This document shows, piece after piece, positions 3,507-16,205 of a DNA stretch of 64,000 bases. Position 1 is the stretch's first letter, and every line of letters begins with the position of its first letter. The stretch is from positions 248,001 through 312,000 of the forward strand of contig NZ_JAFBCB010000001.1 of NCBI RefSeq assembly GCF_016907455.1, read 5' to 3'. The DNA is from Brachybacterium muris (GTDB lineage: Bacteria; Actinomycetota; Actinomycetes; Actinomycetales; Dermabacteraceae). A program made the position numbers and the translations under genes. Below the pieces are notes generated by a model. That model saw only the letters and a program-made list of their open reading frames with translations. It was not told the origin of the DNA and ran no database searches.

Positions 3507-4253
3507 TCACTGGGGCAGTGCGGTGTGTTCTCGCATGTTCCTGTCGCCGGTGTCGATCCAGATTGTGTTGTGCACGATGCGGTCCATGATCGCATCGGCG
3601 TGGACTGCTCCACCGAGCCGGGCGTGCCAGTCCTTCTTCGGGTACTGGGTGCAGAACACGGTCGAGCCGGTGTCATAGCGGCGCTCGAGCAGTTCCAGCA
3701 GCATCGAACGCATTCCCTCGTCAGGATGGTCCAGCAGCCACTCGTCGATCACCAGCAGCGAGAACGTGGAGTACTTCCGCAGGAACTTCGTCTGGCCCTG
3801 CGGCTTGTCCTTTGCCAGGGCCCAGGCCTCTTCGAGGTCGGGCATTCGGATGTAGTGGGCTCGGAGCCGGTGCTGGCAGGCCTGCTTCGCCAGCGCGCAG
3901 CCGAGGTAGGACTTCCCTGAGCCGGTGAAGCCCTGGAAGACCACGTTCTGTTGCCGCTGGATGAAGGAGCAGGTTGCCAGTTGCGCGATCACGTTCCGGT
4001 TCAGTCCCCGTTCCTCGACCAGATCCAGCCGCCGCAGGTCCGCTCCGGGATAACGCAGCCCCGCCCGGCGGATCAGACCCTCGACCTTTCCATGATTGAA
4101 GATGGAATGCGCCTCGTCCACGATCAGCTGGAGCCGTTCCTGGAACGACATCCCCAGCACGTGAGCCTCATCCTGGGCATCGATCGCGTCCAGCAGCGCG
4201 GTCGCGCCCATCTCGCGCAGCTTCCGCTTCGTGTCGTTATCGATCACGCTCAC
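3507..4253 (-). CDS. istB: IstB, IS21 helper ATPase
   Basis: IstB is an AAA+ ATPase that assembles on DNA and directs the IstA transposase to targets. The 248-residue protein has the Walker A motif GFTGSGKS, Walker B LLVIDEW and the IstB tail with RYDTGSTVFCTQYP. The start is the GTG at 4253, whose last bases overlap the istA stop (GTGA), so the genes are translationally coupled. An open frame continues upstream but only through istA. Length is usual for the family. Confidence 0.92.
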   Translation of the reverse strand: MSVIDNDTKRKLREMGATALLDAIDAQDEAHVLGMSFQERLQLIVDEAHSIFNHGKVEGLIRRAGLRYPGADLRRLDLVEERGLNRNVIAQLATCSFIQRQQNVVFQGFTGSGKSYLGCALAKQACQHRLRAHYIRMPDLEEAWALAKDKPQGQTKFLRKYSTFSLLVIDEWLLDHPDEGMRSMLLELLERRYDTGSTVFCTQYPKKDWHARLGGAVHADAIMDRIVHNTIWIDTGDRNMREHTALPQ

Positions 4254-5812
4254 CGGACACCTCCGGCGTAGTAGTCGGCGCCACGGACGTATCCGCCGTC
4301 TTCCGCGGGTTCCTCGCGGGGTGGACGCAGGGCGGCGACCTTGTCCTGCCCGGTGGCCAAGATCGGGTGCAGATGCGCATAGCGCGGTGAACGGACCCGT
4401 CCCGTCAGCGCGAGTGCGCAGGCCGCCTCGACCCGATCTACGGAGAAGCGGCGAGAGAGCCGTAGCACCGCCAACGCGGGATCCAGGCCCTGTTCCACGA
4501 TCGGCACGGACTCGAAGATCCGCTGGATCACGATCACCGTGGCCGGCCCGACCCGATCTGCCCACGCCCGCACCCTCTGCGCGTCCCAGGCCTGGAAACG
4601 CTCGCCCGCAGGTAGGTCCGCGTCGTTGGTGCGGTACTCATTGCTCGCGGTCTCCGGGAGCAGCAGGTGACTGGTCAGTCGCTGGCTGCCCTGATAGATC
4701 TCCAGCGTCCGGGCCGTGATGCGCAGATCGACCTTCGCGCCGATGTGCGCGAACGGCGCGGAGTAGAAGTTCCGCGCGAACGTGACGTGCCCGTTCCTGC
4801 CCACTCGTCGTCCGTAGTGCCATGTCGAGATCTCGTAGGGCACCGCCGGCAGCGGCGTCAGCAGCGGCCGCTCCTCCGCGTCGAACACGCTGGCGCGGGA
4901 TCCGGGCCGCTTCTGGAACGGCTCCGCGTTATAGGCCTCCATCCGCTGCCCGATGGCGGCTGCAAGTTCGGGCAGGGACGTGAATCGCTGATCCCGCAGC
5001 CCGGCGATGACCCAGGTCGCGACGTGCGCGACGGTGTTCTCCACGCTCGCCTTGTCTTTCGGTTTCCGCACCCTCCCCGGGAGCACCGCCGCCGAGTAAT
5101 GCGCTGCCATCTCGCGATACGCATCGTTCAGGACGATCTCGCCCTCGCGGGGGTGCTTCACCACACCGGTCTTGAGGTTGTCCGGAACGATCCTCGGGAC
5201 CGTCCCGCCCAGCGCCTCGAACATCGCTACGTGCGCTCGCAGCCAGGACTCCTGGCGCATATCCAGCGCCGGGAAGCAGAACGCGTAACGAGAAAAAGGC
5301 AGGCAGGCAACGAACAAGAACACCTTCGAGACCTCGCCGGTGACCGGATCGGCCAGCTCCATCGTGGGGCCGGACCAGTCGACCTCCACGCTCTGGCCGG
5401 CCTTGTGACCGACTCTCGAAGCGGCACCGGTGACCATGACGTGGTGCTGGTAGGTGCGGCAAAACCGGTCATACCCCATCGCCGGATCCCCAGCCGCCGT
5501 GGTCGCGTCGAAGTACTCGCCGTGCAACAGCTTCAGCGTCACGCCGACCCTGGCCATCTCTCGATGGACCTGTTCCCAGTCCGGCTGTGCGAACACGCTC
5601 TCGTGCTCGCCCCGGCCCGGGAACAACCGGGCATACACCTGCTCATCGGCGACGTCCGCGATATCGCCCCACCCGATCCCTGCAGCGTCAGCGGCCTCGA
5701 ACACCGCCCTCACGGACTTGCGGGACATGCCCTGCGAGGACGAAATCGCTCGCCCCGACAGACCTTCTGCGCGCAGCTGGAGCACCAGCTTCGCCCTGAT
5801 CTTCCGTACCAT
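4250..5812 (-). CDS. istA: IstA, IS21 DDE transposase
   Basis: IstA recognises the element ends and carries out cleavage and strand transfer. The 520-residue protein begins with a helix-turn-helix region (about residues 15-40, SGRAISSSQGMSRKSVRAV) and contains an rve catalytic core. The triad residues are visible as D in VEVDWSGPT, D in VPDNLKTGV and E in KDKASVENTV. A C-terminal beta-barrel-like Mu-transposase C region (YSAPFAHIGAKVDLRI) follows. It lies just inside the right end of the element and shares a 4-bp overlap with istB. Nothing suggests truncation. Confidence 0.93.
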   Translation of the reverse strand: MVRKIRAKLVLQLRAEGLSGRAISSSQGMSRKSVRAVFEAADAAGIGWGDIADVADEQVYARLFPGRGEHESVFAQPDWEQVHREMARVGVTLKLLHGEYFDATTAAGDPAMGYDRFCRTYQHHVMVTGAASRVGHKAGQSVEVDWSGPTMELADPVTGEVSKVFLFVACLPFSRYAFCFPALDMRQESWLRAHVAMFEALGGTVPRIVPDNLKTGVVKHPREGEIVLNDAYREMAAHYSAAVLPGRVRKPKDKASVENTVAHVATWVIAGLRDQRFTSLPELAAAIGQRMEAYNAEPFQKRPGSRASVFDAEERPLLTPLPAVPYEISTWHYGRRVGRNGHVTFARNFYSAPFAHIGAKVDLRITARTLEIYQGSQRLTSHLLLPETASNEYRTNDADLPAGERFQAWDAQRVRAWADRVGPATVIVIQRIFESVPIVEQGLDPALAVLRLSRRFSVDRVEAACALALTGRVRSPRYAHLHPILATGQDKVAALRPPREEPAEDGGYVRGADYYAGGVR

Positions 5813-5974
5813 TCCAGATTGCTCCTTCCGCCGCGTGCCCTATACACACGGCGGAAGGAGCGTAGACAGAGCGGCCCCAACGACACCACTGGTGGTCCCG
5901 AACGACGCCACCGCTACGGCAGCGACGTGGCACCCGAACCCTCGATCAGCGGACCCCAGCGAGGCGAATATTCA

Positions 5975-7507
5975 ATGATCACCGGCGAGTCCAGCCCCGT
6001 GCGTCGCGAGATCGGTGATCAGGTCGTCGCCGGCACGGTGGCGACGGACAACGCGCTGCGCGTGCGCGTCACCGCGATCGGTGAGGACACCGCCCTGTCC
6101 GGCATCCAGCGCCTGGTCGCCAACGCCCAATCCTCCACGACCCGGGCCCAGCTGCTCGCGGACAGAGCCGCCGGCTGGCTGTTCTGGTACGCGCTGATCG
6201 CGGCGATCGTCACCGCGATCGTGTGGACGGTTGTCGGGGTGCCCGAGAGTGCGCTGGTCCGCGCGATCACGGTTCTGGTCATCGCCTGCCCTCATGCGCT
6301 GGGTCTGGCGATCCCGCTGGTGGTGTCCATCTCGACCGAGCGGGCCGCGAAGGGCGGCGTCCTGGTCAAGGAGCGTGCCGCCCTGGAGCGGATGCGCACC
6401 ATCGACACCGTCCTGTTCGACAAGACGGGCACGCTGACCAAGGGCGAGCCCGCCCTGAACCACGTCACCACCGTCGGCACCCTGGGCGAGGACGAGCTGC
6501 TCGCGCTGGCCGCCGCGGCCGAAGCCGACAGCGAGCACCCCCTCGCCCGGGCGATTACCGCCGCTGCCGCGGAACGCGGACTCGACGTGCCGCGCGCCAC
6601 CGCGTTCCAGTCCACCACCGCGGTCGGCGTCAGCGCCACCGTGGACGGGCGCACCGTCCAGGTCGGCGGACCCAACCTCCTGGCCGAGCACGGCCAGGGA
6701 CCGCTGCCGGCCACCGGGCCGTGGTCCGCGGACGGAGCGATCGTCCTCCATGTCCTCCTCGACGGGCAGGTCACCGGAGCGATCGGCCTGGCCGACGAGG
6801 TGCGCCAGGAATCTCGCGAGGCCGTCGATGCCCTGCACGAGCTGGGAATCCGCGTCGTCATGATCACCGGCGACGCCGAGCCGGTCGCCCGCGCCGTGGC
6901 CGGCGAGCTGGGGATTGACCAGGTCTTCGCCCAGGTGCGCCCGGAGCACAAGAGCGAGAAGGTCCTCGAGCTCCAGCGCGAAGGCCGGACCGTGGCCATG
7001 GTGGGCGACGGTGTCAACGATGCCCCCGCCCTCGCGCAGGCCGACGTCGGCATCGCGATCGGTGCCGGCACCGACGTCGCGATCGCGTCCGCGGGCGTGA
7101 TCCTGGCCTCCGACGATCCCCGCTCGGTGCTCTCGGTGATCCAGCTCTCCCGTGCCAGTTACCGCAAGATGAAGCAGAACCTGTGGTGGGCCGCCGGATA
7201 CAACATCGCCGCCGTTCCGCTCGCCGCCGGTGTCCTGGCCCCGATCGGGTTCGTGCTTCCCATGTCGGTCGGCGCGATCCTGATGTCGTTGTCCACTGTC
7301 GTTGTGGCCTTGAATGCGCAGCTGCTGCGGCGCCTGGATCTGACCCCTGCCAAGAGCGCGGCGCGCCTGGCCGGCCGCGAGAGCTCGACCTCGGTGTCGA
7401 CGAACCAGTCTTCGAGCCGCGCGGGCTCGGTCAGCTCCCGGTCGGACTCGAGCAGGACCTCCACGGCGCCCAGGAACGGAGATCAGACTGGAGCCCATGA
7501 GGAGTGA
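5975..7507 (+). pseudogene. copB: copB-like copper P1B-ATPase, 3' part, split by IS21
   Basis: This is the remainder of the copper ATPase. In joined numbering it holds the actuator TGES loop at about 299, the membrane ion site CPH at about 400 (CPH, not CPC, marks the CopB/P1B-3 class), the phosphorylation motif DKTGTLT at about 444, the ATP-domain HP pair at about 482 and the hinge GDGVND at about 639. A Ser-rich tail follows. An ATG made by the target duplication (5975) is in frame, and GAGG about 10 bases upstream lies in the insertion sequence, so a truncated protein could be made. It would lack the first membrane helices and the His-rich tail. The last 11 bp overlap the response-regulator gene. 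Confidence 0.9.
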
Positions 7508-8210
7508 ATCGGCTCGAGCTGCAGCGACGGTTCTCGTTGTCGAAGACGAAGTCGCGCTCTCGGACGTCATGCAGGCATATCTCGTGAAGGCCGGCTACGC
7601 CACGGGGAGCGCGCGAAGCGGTCCGGAGGCGGTGGAGGTAGCCCGCGCCTTGTCACCGGACGTGATCATCCTCGATCTCGGCCTGCCTGGCCTTGATGGC
7701 TTGGAGGTGATGAGGAGGATCCGCGCCTTCTCCGACTGCTACGTGCTGATCACGACGGCGCGCTCAGAGGAGGTTGATCGCCTGGTGGGGCTGTCGGTGG
7801 GTGCGGATGACTACCTCACTAAACCGTTCAGCGTGCGTGAACTTGTCGCCCGGGTCCAGGCCGTGCTGCGGCGGCCCCGCGGCGAGCCCGGGACCGCTCC
7901 TTCGGGCACGGTGCGCGCGTTCGGAGAGCTTGAGATCGATACGGCCGCCCAGGAGGTGCGGCTCGCTGGCCAACCAGTCCCGCTGACCCCCACCGAGAGG
8001 GGACTGCTTATGACCCTGGCACGTCGGCCGGGCCAGGTCTTCAGCCGCCACCAGCTGATGGAAGCCGTCTGGGGTGGTTCCTGGATCGGAGATGACCATC
8101 TTGTCGATGTGCATATTGCCAACCTGCGACGAAAACTGGACGAGACAGCGGGTTCGGCACGGTATGTCACCACGGTCCGCGGTATCGGGTACCGGATGGG
8201 GAAGGGGTGA
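7497..8210 (+). CDS. OmpR/PhoB-family response regulator, probable copper-responsive
   Basis: This 237-residue DNA-binding regulator has an N-terminal receiver domain with acidic residues VEDE (15-18), phospho-acceptor D60 (in VIILDLGLPG) and conserved K109 (LTKPF). A winged-helix output domain (about 140-235) ends in the usual TVRGIGYRM motif. The start overlaps the end of the copper ATPase by 11 bp, so it was in the same operon, and a sensor kinase gene follows after 4 bases. Position suggests copper or metal sensing, as for CopRS/CusRS; no sequence feature proves the signal. The IS21 insertion upstream may be polar on it. Confidence 0.9.
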   Translation: MRSESARAAATVLVVEDEVALSDVMQAYLVKAGYATGSARSGPEAVEVARALSPDVIILDLGLPGLDGLEVMRRIRAFSDCYVLITTARSEEVDRLVGLSVGADDYLTKPFSVRELVARVQAVLRRPRGEPGTAPSGTVRAFGELEIDTAAQEVRLAGQPVPLTPTERGLLMTLARRPGQVFSRHQLMEAVWGGSWIGDDHLVDVHIANLRRKLDETAGSARYVTTVRGIGYRMGKG

Positions 8211-8214
8211 GGGC

Positions 8215-9354
8215 GTGACTGATCCCCGCTCATCGGCCAGAACGATCCGCCCCGGCACGAGCCTCGCCTCACGTTTAATGATCGGCCAGCTCATCGTGCT
8301 GTGTGCCGGCGCCGTCAGCATCACCGCTCTGACGGTGATGATCGGACCCGCCGTCTTCCACTATCACCTGCTCCAGACTGCTCTTCCGGTGGGCAGCGCT
8401 GAGATTCTGCATATCGAGCGCGCCTACCGTGACGCTCTCGCCCTCGCCCTGGGGGTCGGACTGGTGGTCTCCCTCCTAGCGGCAGGCCTGGTCACCTGGA
8501 GACTGGCGCGACGACTCCGGCAGACGCTCCACCGCCTCACCCTGGCCGTGGACGAACTCTCCCGAGGCCACTACTCCACTCGGGTGCCCGCCCTCGGCGC
8601 GGGAACCGAGCTGGACTCTCTGGCCGCCACGCTCAACGACATGGCTGCACGCCTAGATGCCGTCGAAGAGAATCGCCGCCGGCTGCTCTCTGACCTCGCC
8701 CACGAGCTACGTACTCCCATTGCTACTCTCTCGGCACATCACGAGGCGATGGCTGATGGTGTCATCGAGCCGGAGGCGGCCATGCCCATCCTTGCCGGTC
8801 AGACCGTACGCCTGTCCCGGCTGGCCGACGACATCAGCGAGGTGTCCCGTGCCGAAGAGGGACAGCTCCCGGTGGAGCTGCGGCCAACGTCGGTCCGCGA
8901 CCTGCTGGACTCAACACTCCAGGAATGGGAGGAGAGGTTCGAGGCAGCGGGTGTGGCATTGCGACGAGATTTCGTTATGCGCCGCTCCCCGATCATTCAC
9001 GCCGACCCGGACCGCCTCGCCCAGGTACTCGGAAACCTCCTGAGCAATGCCCTGCGGCACACCTCGCCCGGAGGCACCGTCACGCTTTCGGCCACGATGG
9101 AGGGCGGCACCGTGGTGATCTCTGTGTCCGACGACGGTGAGGGTTTCACCGCGCGTGACCAGGCGCGGCTGTTCGAACGCTTCTTCCGCGCCGACAGCGC
9201 TCGCACCCGTGAGGACTCCGGGTCAGGTATCGGTCTGACGATCAGCCGCGCCCTGGTCGATGCGCACGGTGGAACCATGTCCGCAGCCAGTGAGGGGCCC
9301 GGACAGGGAGCCACCTTCACCATCCGGCTTCCTGGAGCGACCGCTGACCGCTGA
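8215..9354 (+). CDS. sensor histidine kinase paired with the OmpR-type regulator
   Basis: This 379-residue membrane kinase would phosphorylate the adjacent regulator. Two hydrophobic segments (about 22-46 and 76-96) flank a short extracytoplasmic loop of only some 30 residues containing two His (HYH). A HAMP domain (about 97-150), the HisKA phospho-acceptor H163 (LAHELRTP) and HATPase motifs N (LLSNALRH), G1 (DDGEGF) and G2 (GSGIGLTI) follow. The GTG start at 8215 lies 4 bases after the regulator stop. The tiny sensor loop suggests that it detects a small ligand such as a metal ion, or stress within the membrane; this is inference. Confidence 0.9.
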   Translation: MTDPRSSARTIRPGTSLASRLMIGQLIVLCAGAVSITALTVMIGPAVFHYHLLQTALPVGSAEILHIERAYRDALALALGVGLVVSLLAAGLVTWRLARRLRQTLHRLTLAVDELSRGHYSTRVPALGAGTELDSLAATLNDMAARLDAVEENRRRLLSDLAHELRTPIATLSAHHEAMADGVIEPEAAMPILAGQTVRLSRLADDISEVSRAEEGQLPVELRPTSVRDLLDSTLQEWEERFEAAGVALRRDFVMRRSPIIHADPDRLAQVLGNLLSNALRHTSPGGTVTLSATMEGGTVVISVSDDGEGFTARDQARLFERFFRADSARTREDSGSGIGLTISRALVDAHGGTMSAASEGPGQGATFTIRLPGATADR

Positions 9355-9380: not shown

Positions 9381-9534
9381 TTAGACGATCGTGGTGAAGT
9401 TACCGACTCGTACCTGCAGCAATGCCATCCACTGCTCCCACACCCCGGAGACCAGCAGCAGCCCGATGGTGATCAGGACGGACCCGCCGACGATCTGGAG
9501 CGTGCGGCGATGCCGGGACAGCACTTTGGAGATT
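9381..9534 (-). pseudogene. ccdA: ccdA, 3' part, cut off by IS1380
   Basis: The 51 codons (reading ISKVLSRHRRTLQIVGG onward, stop TAA at 9383-9381) are the last transmembrane helix and tail of a CcdA-type protein. The upstream part is at 11225-11832. Both parts together are exactly 762 bp and in frame, giving a 253-residue protein. The fragment has no start signal of its own, and its stop lies 26 bp from the end of the convergent kinase gene. Confidence 0.85.
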
Positions 9535-11224
9535 CCTAGCCTCGGGCTTTCATCGTTGAGGTGTCCGAGGGGCGGGTCGTGATGGGTGAAGGTGCTCCTG
9601 AACTGGAAGAATAGGGCTTGTCAAGAGTCCAGTTCTTCGCAGTCCAAGGAGCACCTTCAGGGTGAATACTACCGGGTTGTATCCACGTCCTCAGGTTGAT
9701 GTCGCATCGGTGCCCGCCGTCGGTCAAGCAGGCGGGATCCTGCTGACCCAGACGCTGCGGGCGACGGGCCTGGCCAACGAGCTGTCTAGAGCGCTGGCCC
9801 CGTGGAGGAAGCAGTTCTCGCGGCATGATCCGGGGAAGATCCTCACCGATCTTGCGCTGATGCTCGCGGTCGGTGGGGACTGCCTGGCCGACGTCGCGAC
9901 GCTGCGGGCGGAACCGGAGGTGTATGGGCCTGTGGCCTCGGATCCGACGATCTCCCGCCTGCTGACCGCCCTGGCGGCTGACGTCGACAAGGCCGAGAAC
10001 GCGATCAGCACGGCCCGCCGGAATGCTCGCAAGAACGCCTGGGCTCAGGCCGGGCATCACGCCCCCAATGCGAACGCAACGGTGAAGAATCCGCTGGTCA
10101 TCGACCTGGATGCATCACTGGTGACGTCCCATAGCGAGAAGGAGTTCGCCAGGCCGACGTTCAAGAAGGGTTTCGGATTCCATCCGTTGCTGGCGTTCGT
10201 CGACCACGGCACCGGAGGAAGCGGAGAGATGCTGACCTGTCTCCTGCGCCCCGGTAACGCCGGTTCGAACACCGCCGCCGATCACAAGAGCGTGATCGCC
10301 GATGCGCTGGCTCAGGTGGGGATGGGGTCCCGGCCCGGGAAGAAAGTGCTGGTCCGGATTGACGGGGCCGGTGGCACGAAGAAGACGCTGCAGGAGCTCG
10401 TGAAGCGGCGGGTCTCGTACTCGGTCGGATTCACCCTGCCTGCGAACACGCCGGAACTGTTTCGCTTGATCCCGAAGGACGTGTGGGAGCCGGCCTACAA
10501 CCCAGGCGGCGACGTCCGGGACGGCGCGGACGTCGCCGAACTGACCGGGCTGCTCGACCTCGACGAGGACTGGCCGACCGGGATGCGAGTCATCGTCCGG
10601 CGTGAGCGCCCTCATCCCGGGGCGCAGCTGCGGTTCGATGACGTCGATGGCTACCGGCTCACTGCGTTCGCGACCAACACCTCCACGGGCCAGCTCGCCG
10701 ATCTCGAGGTGCGTCACCGTCGGCGTGCTCGTTGCGAGGACCGGATCCGGGCCGCGAAAGACATGGGCCTGCGGAACCTGCCCCTGACCTCGTTCGCGCA
10801 GAACCGGATCTGGTGCCAGATCGTGGCTCTGGCCAGTGAGATCACTGCCTGGATGGGGCTGCTCGGCTACGCCGACCAGCCCGCTCGGCGGTGGGAACCC
10901 AAACGCGTGCGCCACCGCCTGTTCCAGATCCCCGCGACCATCGCACGGCATGCTCGTCAGCAGGTCCTACACCTCTCGGACCAGTCACTCTGGGCCCGGA
11001 TCGTCCTGGCAGGCCACGCCCGCCTCACCCAACTCCCCGCCCCCGCCGGATAGCCTCACAAACTCGTCGTTGACCGCACTCCCCAAGGACCCTGGCTCTG
11101 GACGCCCGACCACCGCGACCGACACGCGGCGGACCGTCACACCCTGATGCCAGAATCGGCTACGGACATCGGCCTCGACGCCCGACACTGCCGCTCAGCA
11201 GCACCGTGAAAGATCGAGGCTAGG
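9535..11224 (+). mobile_element. IS1380-family insertion sequence inside ccdA
   Basis: The 1690-bp element has inverted ends CCTAGCCTCG...CTTTCA on both sides (left 9535 onward, right read back from 11224). It carries one transposase gene covering most of its length, the IS1380 layout. The bases outside the ends (GATT on the left, GCGC on the right) do not repeat, so no target duplication is visible, although IS1380 elements normally make one. The two ccdA halves nevertheless join in frame without any duplicated base. Confidence 0.88.
9662..11053 (+). CDS. IS1380-family transposase
   Basis: This 463-residue DDE transposase belongs to the IS1380/ISEcp1 group. The RNase H-like core starts around residue 140 with D in LVIDLDASLVTSH. 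The second acidic residue lies in VLVRIDGAGG, and the late glutamate lies in RCEDRIRAAKDMGLRNLP, the conserved IS1380 block near residue 365. GTG is the start, with AAGGAG 10 bases upstream. It fills the element between the two inverted ends. It is full length and shows no frameshift, so the copy may be active. Confidence 0.9.
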   Translation: MNTTGLYPRPQVDVASVPAVGQAGGILLTQTLRATGLANELSRALAPWRKQFSRHDPGKILTDLALMLAVGGDCLADVATLRAEPEVYGPVASDPTISRLLTALAADVDKAENAISTARRNARKNAWAQAGHHAPNANATVKNPLVIDLDASLVTSHSEKEFARPTFKKGFGFHPLLAFVDHGTGGSGEMLTCLLRPGNAGSNTAADHKSVIADALAQVGMGSRPGKKVLVRIDGAGGTKKTLQELVKRRVSYSVGFTLPANTPELFRLIPKDVWEPAYNPGGDVRDGADVAELTGLLDLDEDWPTGMRVIVRRERPHPGAQLRFDDVDGYRLTAFATNTSTGQLADLEVRHRRRARCEDRIRAAKDMGLRNLPLTSFAQNRIWCQIVALASEITAWMGLLGYADQPARRWEPKRVRHRLFQIPATIARHARQQVLHLSDQSLWARIVLAGHARLTQLPAPAG

Positions 11225-11832
11225 GCGCGCCGGAACACGAGGGCGAAGAGGATGAACGGGATCCCGAGCCCGATCGCGTAGCCGAAGGCGAGGAGGGCGC
11301 CGCGGCTGGCGGATGCCTCCCCGAGGCTGAGTGCGGCGACTGCGGCGAACGTCGGGCCGATGCACGGGGTCCAGGAGAAGCCGAACGTGATCCCGAGCAG
11401 CGGGGCGCCGGCGAGTCCGGCATCGGGGCGCTTCCGGATCCGTTTCTCGCCCGAGAGGCGGGGGAAGATTCCCACGAACACCAGGCCCATGAGGATCACC
11501 AGCACTCCGGAGATCCGATTGATCGCGCTGGTGTACTGGACCATCAGCGCCCCGAGCGCGCCGACGAATCCGCCGATGACCAGGAATACCGCAGTGAACC
11601 CGGCGACGAACAGCACAGCGCCGGTGACCAAACGCCCTGGACGCTCACCCGGATCGCTGGGGCTGCGCGGGCTGGTGTTCTGTCCGGTGAGGCCGGTGAT
11701 GTATCCGAGGTAGCCAGGAACCACCGGAAGCACGCACGGCGAGAGGAACGCGACCAGACCGGCCACCATCGACAGCAGCAGGGCTGCGGCCAGGGGTCCG
11801 CTCAGCACGGTGGTGGCGAACAGTTCACCCAT
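11225..11832 (-). pseudogene. ccdA: ccdA, 5' part, cytochrome-c-biogenesis/thiol-transfer membrane protein
   Basis: CcdA carries reducing power from cytoplasmic thioredoxin across the membrane to extracytoplasmic thiol partners. This part encodes the first 202 codons with five or so hydrophobic helices. Two conserved redox cysteines are present, in FLSPCVLPVVPGY (about residue 31) and FSWTPCIGPT. The gene breaks after VFRRA at the IS1380 end, and translation would run on about 29 codons into the element. The ATG at 11832 overlaps the stop of the tlpA-like gene by one base (TGATG), showing coupling. Loss of the last helix probably abolishes function. Confidence 0.87.
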
Positions 11833-12491
11833 CAGGCGGCCTCCGCTAGCACGGCATCCAGGAGGCTCTCTAAGGTGCTCTGATCGGCTGCGCCCGCGAT
11901 CCGGGCGGCTACTCGTCCTTCAGCATCGAGGATCAAAGTCGTGGGGACGGCGTTGGGCGAGACGCTGCCGTCCATGGACGCGATCACCGCCCCGTCGGTG
12001 TCGGGGATCGAGGGATAGGTGATGCCGAAGGTCTTCTCGAACGCGGCGGCTGGCCCGGCCTTGTCGCGCGTGTTCACGCCCACGAATTCCACTCCCAGGG
12101 CGCTGTACTCGGAGTGCACGGCCTTCAGCGCCGGTGCTTCGACCCGGCACGGCGGACACGACGCATACCAGACGTTGATCAGCAAGGGTGCACCGCGCAG
12201 CGCCGTGGAGTCGAAGTCGTCGCCGTCGTAGGTGGTTCCCCGAATCTCCAGAGGATCGGCGCGTCCCTCCGGGGGGATCTCGACGACGACACCATCGCCG
12301 GAGACGTACCCGGCGTTCGCCTCGCTCGCGGCGTCCGAAGAACTGCTGCACGCCGCAAGAAGGGGCGCGAGGACGAGCAGGCTCCCGCCCAGTCGGAGCG
12401 TGGTCCGACGACCCAGGCGTGGTGTCACGCTCCGCCCAGTTGGGCCGACCACCGAATGCCAGAAGGCGGACCGGGTGCTTCGCCTGCTCAC
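11832..12491 (-). CDS. TlpA/ResA-like thioredoxin-fold lipoprotein
   Basis: This extracytoplasmic thiol-disulfide oxidoreductase is probably reduced by the CcdA encoded next to it. The 219-residue product has a signal with lipobox LLAAC (C48) and a thioredoxin/AhpC-like domain (about 75-215) with the active site C112-P-P-C115 in VWYASCPPCR, and cis-proline in NAVPTT. The ATG at 12491 overlaps the cueP stop (ATGA). A GTG at residue 22 would give a more typical lipoprotein signal and is an alternative. Lying between cueP and ccdA, it probably keeps a copper-protein cysteine pair reduced. Confidence 0.88.
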   Translation of the reverse strand: MSRRSTRSAFWHSVVGPTGRSVTPRLGRRTTLRLGGSLLVLAPLLAACSSSSDAASEANAGYVSGDGVVVEIPPEGRADPLEIRGTTYDGDDFDSTALRGAPLLINVWYASCPPCRVEAPALKAVHSEYSALGVEFVGVNTRDKAGPAAAFEKTFGITYPSIPDTDGAVIASMDGSVSPNAVPTTLILDAEGRVAARIAGAADQSTLESLLDAVLAEAA

Positions 12492-13141
12492 GTCAGCTGG
12501 AGACTGGTCAGACAGGTCAGATCATCCTCCGCCTGGGTCGAGATGGACGCGGTCCCTGTGACGTCCTCGAGGGCGCACGTGAGCTCGGCGGTGATCCCGC
12601 GCGGCAACCAGAAACCGACGAACCCGTTGTCGTGCGTGGTGCGAGTGCCCTCCTCAAGGACCTCGCCCGAGCTGCTGTCGACCACGCTCACGGTGAGCTC
12701 GCGGCTGCGCAGTTCTCCGCGGCACGTGGTCAGGCTGTGGAAGGCGCACTCATGGGTGGTCTCGACGAACGGGGCCACCGACAAGTAGAACTGGTCCTCG
12801 GGAAGGGGCAGCTCGGCCTCGCGCCCTGCATCGTCTTGGAGCTGCAGAGACGTCGCGGTGACGCTGGCGATCAGATCCTGCGGTCGCTCAGCCACCGGGA
12901 GCGCCTCGAGCCGGTCGATGATCTCGTGCGCGTCCGCGTCGGCGAAGCCATGTTCCTGAAGCAACTCCTGATCACCCGTGATGGATGCGGGCTCGGACCC
13001 GCCGGCCCCGCAGCCGGCGACCACGAGCGGGAACAGGCCGGCACCGAGCACGAGCGATCGGCGCGGCAACCGGCCGGTGCGGCGACGGGGCCTACCCCCG
13101 GAGGAGGCGAGCGCACCTCGAGGGCTCGACGGGGAGGTCAT
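12488..13141 (-). CDS. cueP: CueP-family copper-binding lipoprotein
   Basis: CueP proteins bind copper outside the cytoplasmic membrane and protect against copper stress. The 217-residue product carries a basic N-terminus and lipobox VVAGC (C44), so it should be anchored to the outer face of the membrane. The family hallmark FYLSVAPFVETTHECAFHSL contains C132, and the next Cys, in LTTCRGEL, is C140. Further cysteines are at about 189 and 210. The ATG at 13141 is chosen because it overlaps the stop of the upstream gene (TGATG); a longer frame upstream would run into that gene. It is the second gene of a four-gene copper operon. Confidence 0.88.
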   Translation of the reverse strand: MTSPSSPRGALASSGGRPRRRTGRLPRRSLVLGAGLFPLVVAGCGAGGSEPASITGDQELLQEHGFADADAHEIIDRLEALPVAERPQDLIASVTATSLQLQDDAGREAELPLPEDQFYLSVAPFVETTHECAFHSLTTCRGELRSRELTVSVVDSSSGEVLEEGTRTTHDNGFVGFWLPRGITAELTCALEDVTGTASISTQAEDDLTCLTSLQLT

Positions 13142-13725
13142 CACGCAGGCTCGATCTCGCTCTCGACGACCCACTTGTGGTTCGTCATCATCATCCCGTC
13201 GGCCTCGTAATCGACCATGTACACGGTCTCCTCGGTGGCACTGTCGATGGTGGCCTCAGCACCCTCCATCCCGGTCATGTGATCGGCGGTGATGACCACT
13301 TCGGTGCCCTCTGCCAGCGGTGCCTCGCCCGGGTTCTCGAGCTCCTCGTGAACGACCCACTTGTGGTCAGTGACCGGCTCACCGCCATCGGTCGGCGTGA
13401 AGCTGACCGAGTAGGTCGTGGTGTCGAAGGCGCCCGAGATCGTCGCCGTCGCCCCCTCCATGCCCTCCATGTGGTCCGCCGTGAGCGTCACCTCCGTGCC
13501 GACCGGGAACTCGGGATCCTCCGCAGACGCCATACCTTCGGGCGCAGGGCCGCCATCCATCGGGTGCTCCATGCCGCCGTGGCTGCCTCCATCGGACGCC
13601 TCCGACGCTTCTGACTCGCCCGGCGTCCGACCCTCCTCAGACCCGCTGTCGGTGCAGCCGGCAAACACAATCGCACCGGTGACGACGACGGCCGCGAGAC
13701 GGCCGAGAGAGCGACGAGAACGCAT
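13141..13725 (-). CDS. ydhK: YdhK-type DUF1541 lipoprotein, two tandem domains
   Basis: This 194-residue lipoprotein is often found with copper-resistance genes; its biochemical role is not established. The signal ends in a lipobox VFAGC (about C23). After a Gly/Ser/His/Met linker (SHGGMEHPMDGG) come two near-repeats of about 55 residues, each starting GTEV..TADHM.GMEGA.ATI and ending (D/N)HKWVV. The paired His and Met residues suggest copper binding, which is inference. It is the first gene of the ydhK-cueP-tlpA-ccdA operon. A start at 13725 with AGGAG 7-8 bases upstream is well supported. Confidence 0.87.
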   Translation of the reverse strand: MRSRRSLGRLAAVVVTGAIVFAGCTDSGSEEGRTPGESEASEASDGGSHGGMEHPMDGGPAPEGMASAEDPEFPVGTEVTLTADHMEGMEGATATISGAFDTTTYSVSFTPTDGGEPVTDHKWVVHEELENPGEAPLAEGTEVVITADHMTGMEGAEATIDSATEETVYMVDYEADGMMMTNHKWVVESEIEPA

Positions 13726-13773: not shown

Positions 13774-13792
13774 TCAAGGTCTCCTCAAGGTC
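13774..13792. promoter_or_regulatory. paired direct repeat in the ydhK/csp divergent promoter region
   Basis: TCAAGGTC occurs twice (13774-13781 and 13785-13792), exactly 11 bp apart, one helical turn. This is in the 221-bp gap between the divergent ydhK operon and csp gene. Read toward ydhK, a TTGAGG is followed after 20 bp by TAGGCT, the long spacer typical of MerR-family promoters. No CsoR-type palindrome is present here, so this operon may answer to a different regulator, such as the two-component pair at 7.5-9.4 kb. Confidence 0.4.
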
Positions 13793-13946: not shown

Positions 13947-14357
13947 ATGACCCATCACGTCGCATCAATGCTTCAGACCTACCCGAAGGACCTCGGCACC
14001 ATCGACCAGCAGAAGCTCGCCGAATGCATCGAGGCCTGCTTCGAGTGCGCTCAGACCTGCACCGCCTGCGCGGACGCCTGCCTGGCCGAAGACATGGTGG
14101 CGGAGCTGACCCAATGCATTCGCCTGAACCAGGACTGCGCCGACGTCTGCGAGGTCACCGGCCGGGTCCTATCCCGCCAGACCGGGAAGAACGTCGCCCT
14201 CAACCGTGCCCTGCTCGAGGCGTGTCAGGCGGCGTGCCGGTCCTGCGCCGAGGAGTGCGAGAAGCACGCTGAAATGCACGAGCACTGCAAGGTCTGCGCG
14301 GACGCCTGTCGCCGCTGCGAGCAGGCCTGTGCAGAGCTGTTGGCCTCGATCAGCTGA
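13947..14357 (+). CDS. Csp-type four-helix-bundle copper storage protein, cytosolic
   Basis: Csp proteins (DUF326) are four-helix bundles whose core is lined with cysteines that together hold many Cu(I) ions. The 136-residue product has 18 Cys in repeating C-x2-C, C-x3-C and C-x6-C spacings (for example ECIEACFECAQTCTACADAC), matching a Csp3-like pattern. No signal peptide or Tat motif is present, so it should act in the cytoplasm. AAGGAG lies 9 bases before the ATG. An 11-bp imperfect hairpin (13898-13925) lies in its leader. A clear bidirectional terminator follows. It is read away from the cueP operon. Confidence 0.9.
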   Translation: MTHHVASMLQTYPKDLGTIDQQKLAECIEACFECAQTCTACADACLAEDMVAELTQCIRLNQDCADVCEVTGRVLSRQTGKNVALNRALLEACQAACRSCAEECEKHAEMHEHCKVCADACRRCEQACAELLASIS

Positions 14358-15267: not shown

Positions 15268-15659
15268 AGTTCTGCTCCGTAAGTTCCCCTCCTCGAGACG
15301 GGAGGGAGTCGATGACTTCGTCAGTGCCACAGCGACAGCGGAGCGAGCAACGAGGCGACGGCTCATGTCGTGGGCGGCGACATCAACGTACGGCCCTGAT
15401 CAGCCCCACAGAACAACGATGGGAGGGTCCACCGAAGGATTTAGCCGATCCTTGACTCCACAACCCTGCATACCCCCGGGGGGTAGGGCTCGCCTTTGCC
15501 TTCGTTGGGCAGACTGTGGCTTAAGTGGAGCACGACGCCTCACGGGCCGGCGATCCCGACGTCAGCGCACCGAGGCGCAGCTTTCCTCCTGGCGGGCTGC
15601 GGAGATCACCGGCACGGGCGTCTCGGGGAGCAGCTCGCCGAGCGGGTCGGGATCAGCTG
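15268..15659. other. gap between NlpC/P60 gene and PIN-like gene
   Basis: No full gene is seen. It holds the CsoR-type palindrome at 15470-15486. In the frame ending TGA at 15658-15660, the last residues read LGEQLAERVGIS and the stop overlaps the PIN-gene ATG. This may be the tail of a lost partner gene, but upstream codons in that frame are not convincing. Confidence 0.4.
15470..15486. promoter_or_regulatory. second CsoR-type palindrome, no copper gene adjacent
   Basis: The 15-base core TACCCCCGGGGGGTA is identical to that of the operator before copZ. It stands 203 bp upstream of the NlpC/P60 start (minus strand) and 174 bp before the PIN-like gene (plus strand). A TTGACT lies 12 bp to its left. 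Neither neighbour is an obvious copper gene. Confidence 0.55.
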
Positions 15660-16205
15660 ATGTACCTCGTCGACGCGAGCATCCTGATCGAAGCGAAGAA
15701 CAGGTACTACGCGTTCGACATCGCGCCAGGGTTCTGGACCTGGCTCGAACAGGGCCACCAGGCAGGAGAGCTGATCAGTATTGATGCCGTTCGCGATGAG
15801 CTCCTTAGCGGTGATGACGAGCTCGCGGACTGGGCGCGGGATCACCCGGGCTTCTTCCTACCGGTCGATCAGCGAACCGCCCAGAACTTCGCTCCACTCA
15901 GCACGTGGGCAGCGAGGCAGGACTATCGGCAGGATGCGTTGAACGCGTTCTCGAGTGACCAAGCTGATTTCCTCCTCATCGCCCATGCCGCCGGGCATGG
16001 CGACACCGTTGTCACCAACGAACTGCCCAGTCCGAACGCACGCAAGCGGGTGAAGATCCCGGACGCCTGTGCCGCGATGGGAGTCGAGTATGTCGATTTC
16101 TTCACGGTGCTGCGGACTACAGGAGCGAAGCTCCGCTTCCATGGGGCGGATGGAAGCACGCCCGCGCCTGCGCCCCTGGCACCGACCATTCCAGGGCTCG
16201 ACTGA
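15660..16205 (+). CDS. DUF4411 PIN-like protein, probable toxin without an intact partner
   Basis: The 181-residue protein starts MYLVDASILIEAKN, the N-terminal acidic motif of PIN-fold ribonucleases. Further conserved acidic residues lie in DAVRDELL, SSDQADFLLIAHA and VTNELPSPN. It ends with the KIPDACAAMGVEYVDFFTVL block of DUF4411. Members are usually the second gene of a pair whose first gene encodes an HTH/ImmA-type protein. Here only a doubtful tail of such a gene lies upstream, with its TGA overlapping the ATG (TGATG). If a toxin, it is either inactive or held in check from elsewhere. Confidence 0.75.
   Translation: MYLVDASILIEAKNRYYAFDIAPGFWTWLEQGHQAGELISIDAVRDELLSGDDELADWARDHPGFFLPVDQRTAQNFAPLSTWAARQDYRQDALNAFSSDQADFLLIAHAAGHGDTVVTNELPSPNARKRVKIPDACAAMGVEYVDFFTVLRTTGAKLRFHGADGSTPAPAPLAPTIPGLD

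Follow-up and report, generated by a model that had tools for sequence, protein, structure and literature searches.

An insertion-disrupted operon joining cueP to tlpA and ccdA in Brachybacterium muris, and the separate linkage of a TlpA-CcdA pair to cueP in other Actinobacteria

Introduction

How the periplasmic CueP of Salmonella stays able to bind copper is only partly known. In Brachybacterium muris, cueP lies in one operon with tlpA, encoding a thioredoxin-fold lipoprotein, and ccdA, encoding a CcdA-family membrane protein, which raises the question of whether this pair supplies CueP with electrons. The operon is contained in a stretch of 64,000 nucleotides (assembly GCF_016907455.1, contig NZ_JAFBCB010000001.1, positions 248,001 to 312,000), hereafter called the window, and coordinates refer to the window unless a locus number (L) or the genome is named. 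A sequence-only reading had proposed that the run ydhK-cueP-tlpA-ccdA contains a dedicated redox arm that keeps the CueP cysteines reduced for copper loading. Our best explanation, taken as a whole, is a copper-stress operon with CopRS-type control and a TlpA-CcdA reductase arm of which CueP is the most likely client, and we assign it a rough probability of 0.5.

Genes of the operon

We confirmed the four-gene run ydhK-cueP-tlpA-ccdA, all on the minus strand, from the sequence and by profile searches. The genes are as follows.

13141..13725, minus strand: ydhK, lipoprotein with two DUF1541 stretches (PF07563, 167.9 bits, cut-off 25, 2 stretches; lipobox AGC)
12488..13141, minus strand: cueP, lipoprotein (ATG at 13141, alternative GTG at 13174; PF21172 and NF038094 above cut-off; lipobox AGC)
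11832..12491, minus strand: tlpA, TlpA/ResA-like thioredoxin-fold lipoprotein with active site CPPC (PF08534 and PF00578 above cut-off; lipobox AAC)
11220..11832, minus strand: ccdA, 5' part, about codons 1–204, the open frame continuing in insertion sequence (IS) DNA to 11137 (PF02683; comparison with 255-residue relatives and of transmembrane segments)

The genes, order, and 1–4 bp overlaps first described are correct: the overlaps are 1 bp for ydhK/cueP with the cueP ATG at 13141, 4 bp for cueP/tlpA, and 1 bp for tlpA/ccdA. The first value becomes 34 bp if cueP starts at GTG 13174, the start of the longest open reading frame, and the tlpA start behind the 4-bp overlap is uncertain, a relative (L123) having a stop at codon 4 in that frame. 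YdhK, CueP, and TlpA look like Gram-positive surface lipoproteins. CueP scored 166.8 bits against PF21172 (cut-off 27) and 177 bits against NF038094 (cut-off 60), and it aligned with the solved structure of the Salmonella type, 4gqz, with an E value of 1.4e-27; its score against the Salmonella-type metallochaperone model NF038095 was below the cut-off (119.6 versus 195 bits). TlpA matched Redoxin (66.3 bits, cut-off 26.6) and AhpC-TSA (60.2 bits, cut-off 26) and stayed below the Bacillus subtilis ResA model NF002854 (61.9 versus 170 bits). The DsbD_TM domain of CcdA scored 34.8 bits (cut-off 27.1), and both membrane cysteines (SPCVLP and TPCIGP) are present in the window frame.

The three cysteines of Salmonella CueP were conserved in 190, 189, and 190 of 191 aligned rows (173 of the rows being distinct). 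The C-terminal Cys/His copper-site residues H141, C143, H146, C151, and C221 (GTG-based numbering) are likewise present, each being kept in 189–190 of the 191 rows. The conservation of the three cysteines indicates that CueP has thiols that could need reduction.

Insertion of an IS1380-family element into ccdA

The ccdA gene is interrupted by an IS that the sequence-only reading had missed.

9540..11219, no strand assigned: IS1380-family element of 1,680 bp with ends CCTCGGGCTTTCA and CCTCGATCTTTCA (CTAG flanks; transposase 9662–11053, plus strand; NF033539, 320.5 bits, cut-off 180)
9381..9539, minus strand: ccdA 3' remnant severed by the IS (DNA match to intact relatives; end set by register with L002)

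The element has near-matching ends and is flanked by a CTAG target duplication at 9536–9539 and 11220–11223. In the alignment with intact relatives, ccdA breaks at approximately 11220, after about codon 204, and picks up again at 9539. The window CcdA frame consists of 231 amino acids, of which about 204 are its own and the last 27 are IS-encoded, versus 255 amino acids in full-length relatives, and its helix set is incomplete: the final transmembrane-like segment (residues 219–237 of the 255-residue relative L007) is lost. The genome contains a 100% identical copy of the element at 2,197,571–2,199,250 and a further stretch that matches most of the element at 100%, which indicates that the insertion into ccdA is probably recent. 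The truncated CcdA is probably without function, and the local redox arm is thus probably dead in the window strain.

Any reduction in this strain would then have to come from the other two TlpA-CcdA pairs of the genome. One belongs to a complete TlpA-CcdA-ResB-CcsB cluster (L111, at about 2.71 Mb), and the other to a run of a heavy-metal P-type ATPase, a DsbA-like protein, VKOR, TlpA, and CcdA (L113, 2536–7361, at 2.17 Mb); either pair might stand in for the broken one. At L113, oxidising and reducing thiol pairs lie side by side next to a metal pump.

Conservation and decay within Brachybacterium

CueP was found in 29 of the 38 genomes of the genus (E ≤ 0.001; weakly in G010). Loci were defined as operon-type by CueP identity alone (CueP at least 74% identical to that of the window), which gave 21 places in 19 genomes, the window included. 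The order ydhK-cueP-tlpA was kept in all 21, tlpA being a remnant in L125, and some ccdA was present in 20. Since the loci were chosen by CueP identity alone, this arrangement is not due to chance. The operon of CueP, a CxxC lipoprotein, and CcdA recurs across the genus.

The redox arm (tlpA or ccdA) was damaged in 8 of the 21 operon-type loci, cueP in 1 (L120), and ydhK in none. Besides the IS in the window, the damage comprises the same 1-nucleotide tlpA deletion in L005, L006, L119, and L120 (the last also with a ccdA stop); a ccdA cut at about codon 132 and followed by other DNA up to the contig end in L009; several tlpA frameshifts and an internal ccdA deletion in L010, where an assembly error is possible; and a tlpA remnant with ccdA absent in L125. 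The ccdA genes of the window and L010 were counted as damaged by hand although the coverage script scored them as intact; the tlpA of L123 (early stop, possible downstream start) was left out of the count, as was L121, a duplicate of L011. The ydhK genes were called undamaged by an 85% coverage rule, their first residues differing in L118 and L122. For the operons sharing the tlpA deletion, the pairwise comparisons made gave 99.5–99.8% identity, and the surrounding 7–8 kb segment, over which the similarity extends, gave 99.6–99.8%. Programmed frameshifting was considered for the shared deletion and dropped, because no in-frame slippery heptamer was seen by eye and the four operons are near-identical copies. 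Plasmid spread of the operon was also rejected: no PLSDB record covered 80% of the stretch.

The gene csp, which is divergent from the operon (see below), was missing or fragmented in 4 of the 21 loci (L010, L012, L125, and L126), and thus decay is not peculiar to the redox arm. The median pairwise ratios of nonsynonymous to synonymous substitution rates were 0.12 for ydhK (21 copies), 0.30 for cueP (20), 0.19 for tlpA (14), and 0.13 for ccdA (18), calculated among copies called intact, with the damaged window and L010 frames included in the ccdA set. These values indicate that the copies of the four genes called intact evolve under purifying selection.

A second, more distant Brachybacterium CueP was read at 14 of its 16 places (all but G029 and G006:C22), and a TlpA-CcdA pair was absent from all 14. 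The window genome has such a CueP at 1.04 Mb (L127, 4849–5634), 58% identical in the matched part and encoded beside a DNA alkylation repair gene, with no redox partners within the stretch read. An extra CueP cysteine at position 200 occurred in 20 of the 21 operon-type loci and in the second-type loci L127, L131, and L133; it was rejected as a mark of redox-linked CueP, its distribution by place being that of a Brachybacterium trait.

The skew of damage toward the arm raises the possibility that the arm is a passenger, once useful and now decaying while it is carried along with a mobile copper cluster. The broken tlpA common to four species and the second CueP that lacks the pair throughout agree with such a history. 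However, it sits poorly with the purifying selection, with the order that has been kept, and with a linkage that arose more than once (see below), and we regard it as improbable.

cueP neighbourhoods outside the genus

CueP was rare in a sample of the phylum (5 of 396 genomes, E ≤ 1e-15) and commoner in a sample of the order (109 of 396). The order survey covered all 96 listed cueP places outside the genus, with flanks of at most 5 kb, some contigs ending sooner. A full TlpA-CcdA pair was present in five of them (L142, L155, L158, L165, and L208), which belong to one genus code and have the order tlpA-ccdA-cueP. Partial cases were a short TlpA-like stretch (L138), a marginal CcdA-like match (L146), a lone CcdA-like gene (L204), and a thioredoxin (L212). 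As a rough background estimate, with three pairs per 3.65-Mb genome, a pair would be 5 kb or less away from fewer than 1% of positions.

In a named set of 69 loci, tlpA and ccdA were near cueP in 11/11 loci from Brachybacterium and 8/58 from other genera, the latter counted when both genes start within 3 kb of cueP on the same strand. The eight are from Brevibacteriaceae (L021, L024, L030, and L033; L021 and L024 correspond to L142 and L158 of the order survey) and Corynebacterium (L034, L040, L043, and L045, 4 of 14 in that genus). L019 and L041, where the two genes are more distant and oriented opposite to cueP, and L035, which has only tlpA, at 5.7 kb, were left uncounted. The adjacency on which the sequence-only reading relied is thus conserved in Brachybacterium and infrequent in the related order loci, and we rejected it as a general actinobacterial rule.

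Ten plasmid CueP loci were read. Four of the five from Corynebacterium carry CueP-multicopper oxidase-TlpA beside CopRS, and in three of these four (Corynebacterium comes, C. faecale, and C. marinum) the run continues with CcdA and ResB. In Rothia terrae plasmid p3, cueP is followed by trxA, and the remaining five of the ten plasmid loci have none of these partners. A classical cytosolic-type thioredoxin (CGPC, with no signal seen) is encoded 101–127 nucleotides after cueP in L054, L212, L235, and L304. The trxA-linked gene is a second cueP type, found on chromosomes and on p3; L235 is a second-type Brachybacterium CueP locus.

Origin of the TlpA-CcdA pair

We constructed maximum-likelihood trees of TlpA (67 rows) and CcdA (65 rows), from which duplicate loci, broken-gene loci, and short or partial rows were omitted; the window row (L001) is represented by the 98–99% identical L002. 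In all three lineages, the CueP-linked copies grouped with copies of their own lineage. The Brachybacterium linked copies grouped with the other copies of the family, mostly ResB-linked, with support of 100/98 (TlpA) and 100/100 (CcdA); the Brevibacteriaceae linked copies grouped with Brevibacterium copies (100/99 in both trees), and the Corynebacterium linked copies with Corynebacterium copies (100/100 in both). A single ancient CueP-TlpA-CcdA module for Brachybacterium and Brevibacteriaceae was rejected by the approximately unbiased (AU) test, with p-AU values of 8.5e-7 for TlpA and 1.1e-23 for CcdA. These results indicate that TlpA-CcdA was joined to cueP separately in at least two lineages, Brachybacterium and Brevibacteriaceae. 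Corynebacterium is probably a third separate linkage; the AU test covered the first two lineages, and the Corynebacterium placement rests on the tree and its long branches, the program flagging one long-branch join in the CcdA tree. Following the CPPC helix of TlpA, the linked Brachybacterium and Brevibacteriaceae copies carry A in place of D/E, a change shared by some unlinked Brevibacterium copies.

That the pair was linked to cueP more than once supports a connection between copper and thiol reduction outside the cytoplasm, in which CueP is a candidate substrate. As part of the best explanation, and at the same even odds, the Brachybacterium pair would have been copied from the cytochrome-c-maturation pair of the genus itself and recruited to cueP. 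A wider generalisation, that actinobacterial CueP loci repeatedly gained a reductant of their own, three lineages copying the cytochrome-c-maturation TlpA-CcdA and the mobile cueP type taking a cytosolic thioredoxin, is tentative, and we consider it possible rather than probable.

The same trees bear on the main rival, a serious one, in which the client of the pair is cytochrome c maturation damaged by copper, or general disulfide repair, and the operon is shared since both functions are needed under copper. In each of the three lineages, the linked pair clusters with cytochrome-c-maturation copies. ResB and a Cytochrom_C_asm protein come after it in Corynebacterium L034, in addition to the ResB of the three plasmid loci described above, and a ResB piece lies 3' of cueP in 3 of 7 Brevibacteriaceae loci (L030, L155, and L165), as if cueP had been inserted between ccdA and resB. 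Copper also raises the cytochrome c maturation genes of C. glutamicum 3.6–4.6-fold (available excerpt of PMC3140484). On the other hand, the Brachybacterium operon is without resB, the genome has its separate complete cluster, cueP is the immediate neighbour of the pair in both Brachybacterium and Brevibacteriaceae, and L024 has a nuclease gene rather than resB after cueP. We consider this rival unlikely overall, though less so than the others.

The wider copper cluster and its putative regulation

The four-gene run described by the sequence-only reading stands, but the cluster extends further than it had noted, to csp, a CopRS-like pair, and a copper P-type ATPase.

13774..13791, plus strand: putative CopR-type operator in the csp–ydhK intergenic region, a direct repeat TCAAGGTCTCCTCAAGGT with an 11-bp period (pattern search)
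13947..14357, plus strand: csp, four-helix-bundle Cys-rich copper-binding protein (Csp-like, DUF326), divergent (PF03860, 46.9 bits, cut-off 20.4)
8179..9354, plus strand: histidine kinase, CopS-like, convergent, start assumed (HisKA/HATPase/HAMP)
7497..8210, plus strand: OmpR-family response regulator, CopR-like, convergent (PF00072 and PF00486)
5945..7507, plus strand: copper P1B-ATPase, 3' part only (TIGR01511, 454.1 bits, cut-off 397, matched from profile position 118 of 542)
3507..5812, minus strand: IS21-family genes by the truncated ATPase (istA 4250–5812, istB 3507–4565; NF033546, 228.2 bits, cut-off 160; NF038214, 183.3 bits, under the cut-off of 200)

The TCAAGGTCTCCTCAAGGT repeat is the sole match in the window at ≤2 mismatches and the sole match in the single-contig 3.65-Mb genome at ≤1 mismatch, and the reversed-pattern control gave 0 matches. 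In 19 of the 21 operon-type loci, the 150 bp upstream of ydhK contain it (≤1 mismatch), L002 and L118 having other DNA there. L002 is from B. epidermidis, with an operon about 98% identical and an intact ccdA; an IS1380-type element (3693–5403) lies at a CTAG between the operator-like repeat and ydhK, 1 bp away from the former, and separates the two by about 1.7 kb. In C. glutamicum, the CopR site seems to be unique in the genome, and cg3286-copO-cg3288-tlpA is copper-induced in a CopRS-dependent manner (according to the part of PMC3140484 available).

The response regulator was 52–58% identical to its counterparts near cueP in actinobacterial loci of other genera, where such a gene is present, and 30% identical to those in two Sporosarcina loci. 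Kinases related to the CopS-like kinase also occur near cueP in other actinobacterial loci. The csp product scored 32.6 bits against TIGR04401, below the cut-off of 100; similar plasmid genes are annotated as four-helix bundle copper-binding proteins. The ATPase lacks its N-terminal part: the match to the 898–899-residue frames of L002 and L012 starts at residue 427 of the window open reading frame, the L002 frame used reaching the end of the stored stretch. The copper cluster of the window strain has been struck by two different IS, IS1380 in ccdA and the IS21 genes beside the N-truncated ATPase (3507–7507). A DUF4411 protein (PF14367) is encoded at 15525–16205, which we take to resemble a PIN-type toxin.

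Proposed mechanism

In the explanation that we prefer, the CopRS-type pair probably switches the operon on from the putative operator at 13774–13791. The operon would yield two copper-related lipoproteins, YdhK and CueP, to which the thiol-reductase pair is added in intact relatives. The CcdA family draws electrons from cytosolic thioredoxin, and CcdA would carry them over the membrane to the membrane-tethered TlpA. TlpA may then reduce extracytoplasmic disulfides or copper-oxidised thiols arising under copper stress, and CueP, encoded beside it, is the most likely client, its thiols first. In the window strain, loss of the CcdA C-terminal helix to the IS1380 insertion has probably ended this electron flow.

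Several observations weigh against this explanation. Of the 96 order loci outside the genus, 91 are without a full pair in the 5 kb on either side (less where a contig ends), as are all 14 second-type loci read, which indicates that an adjacent reductase is not a general requirement of CueP. Plasmid pLEW279b has CueP-multicopper oxidase-TlpA beside CopRS and gave no CcdA hit. Breakage in 8 of the 21 operon-type loci argues that the arm is dispensable, and the near-identity of the four operons with the common tlpA deletion, over segments of 7–8 kb, indicates that a broken version moved recently between four species by horizontal spread. The arm damage amounts to about five independent events, versus one in cueP and ydhK, a contrast that is too small to be firm and is suggestive only. 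Several Corynebacterium copies continue into ResB, an arrangement that fits cytochrome c maturation just as well. The regulator and kinase also scored below the heavy-metal models (154.2 versus 279.2 bits for TIGR01387 and 183.5 versus 292.55 bits for TIGR01386). The sequence-only reading is thus supported in part: the recurring operon and the repeated linkage agree with it, whereas its claim of an arm dedicated to CueP is not sustained, the window strain itself having a broken arm, other loci of the genus often a damaged one, and most order loci outside the genus none.

If the client common to these lineages is nevertheless CueP, its binding of copper outside the cytoplasm would depend on a dedicated electron supply, built repeatedly from cytochrome maturation. 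The naturally broken operons in sister species, beside intact ones, make the question of CueP and its reductase testable, and the separate recruitments of cytochrome-maturation genes constitute a natural experiment in the conversion of a general reductase into a stress-specific one.

Comparison with known systems

The window TlpA and CcdA are paralogues of the pair of System II cytochrome c maturation (ResA/TlpA-CcdA-ResB-CcsB). ResB and CcsB were absent among the neighbouring window genes scanned by profile search and are present at L111 in the same genome. The pneumococcal Etrx-CcdA system is an extracytoplasmic thioredoxin-CcdA reductase pair whose client is methionine sulfoxide reductase; it likewise combines CcdA with a surface thioredoxin-fold lipoprotein, whereas the genes linked here are copper genes.

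Salmonella CueP has been linked to DsbC. It has also been reported to work with ScsB and ScsC, which bind Cu(I) and either pass it to CueP or bind CueP (Subedi 2019, as cited in the available parts of PMC13201067 and PMC8900818). As is proposed for our locus, the function of a CueP-family protein is tied to a membrane electron carrier and a thioredoxin-fold protein, and the three cysteines are common to both. The differences are that one operon encodes the whole set here, that the carrier is a minimal CcdA instead of the three-domain ScsB, and that the partner is TlpA-like instead of ScsC; in the profile search of the operon proteins, only the DsbD_TM part was matched, and no DsbA/C-like family hit was obtained. 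By analogy with Scs Cu(I) binding and transfer, TlpA might be a Cu(I)-binding protein that hands copper to CueP, or a reductant for copper-site assembly, with CcdA keeping its CxxC reduced. TlpA matched only Redoxin/thioredoxin-type families, no search being aimed at metal motifs, and we judge this role very improbable.

The C. glutamicum regulon shares with the window a CopRS-type pair and a TlpA; in C. glutamicum, copper induces tlpA together with the other genes of the cluster through a single CopR site (PMC3140484, in the part available). Its first gene, cg3286, very probably encodes CueP, judging from CueP-family matches in C. glutamicum, from the cueP-multicopper oxidase-TlpA run divergent from copRS in pLEW279b, and from C. 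crenatum, for which the accessible part of PMC11124244 names cueP as CopR-dependent. It differs in that a multicopper oxidase gene stands between, that ydhK is absent from that operon, and that its TlpA, joined by CcdA-ResB in some relatives, groups with other Corynebacterium copies. For C. diphtheriae, a title (Um 2015, in the reference list of PMC9974433) connects a DsbA thiol oxidoreductase with CueP in Gram-positives, with DsbA in place of the TlpA-CcdA pair found here. Our literature search found no publication on a CueP-TlpA-CcdA operon or on its separate recruitments. The coupling of CueP to a thiol enzyme is already known in kind from these Salmonella, C. glutamicum, and C. diphtheriae sources, as far as they were available, and the Brachybacterium operon would place such a coupling in a single gene run with a minimal CcdA.

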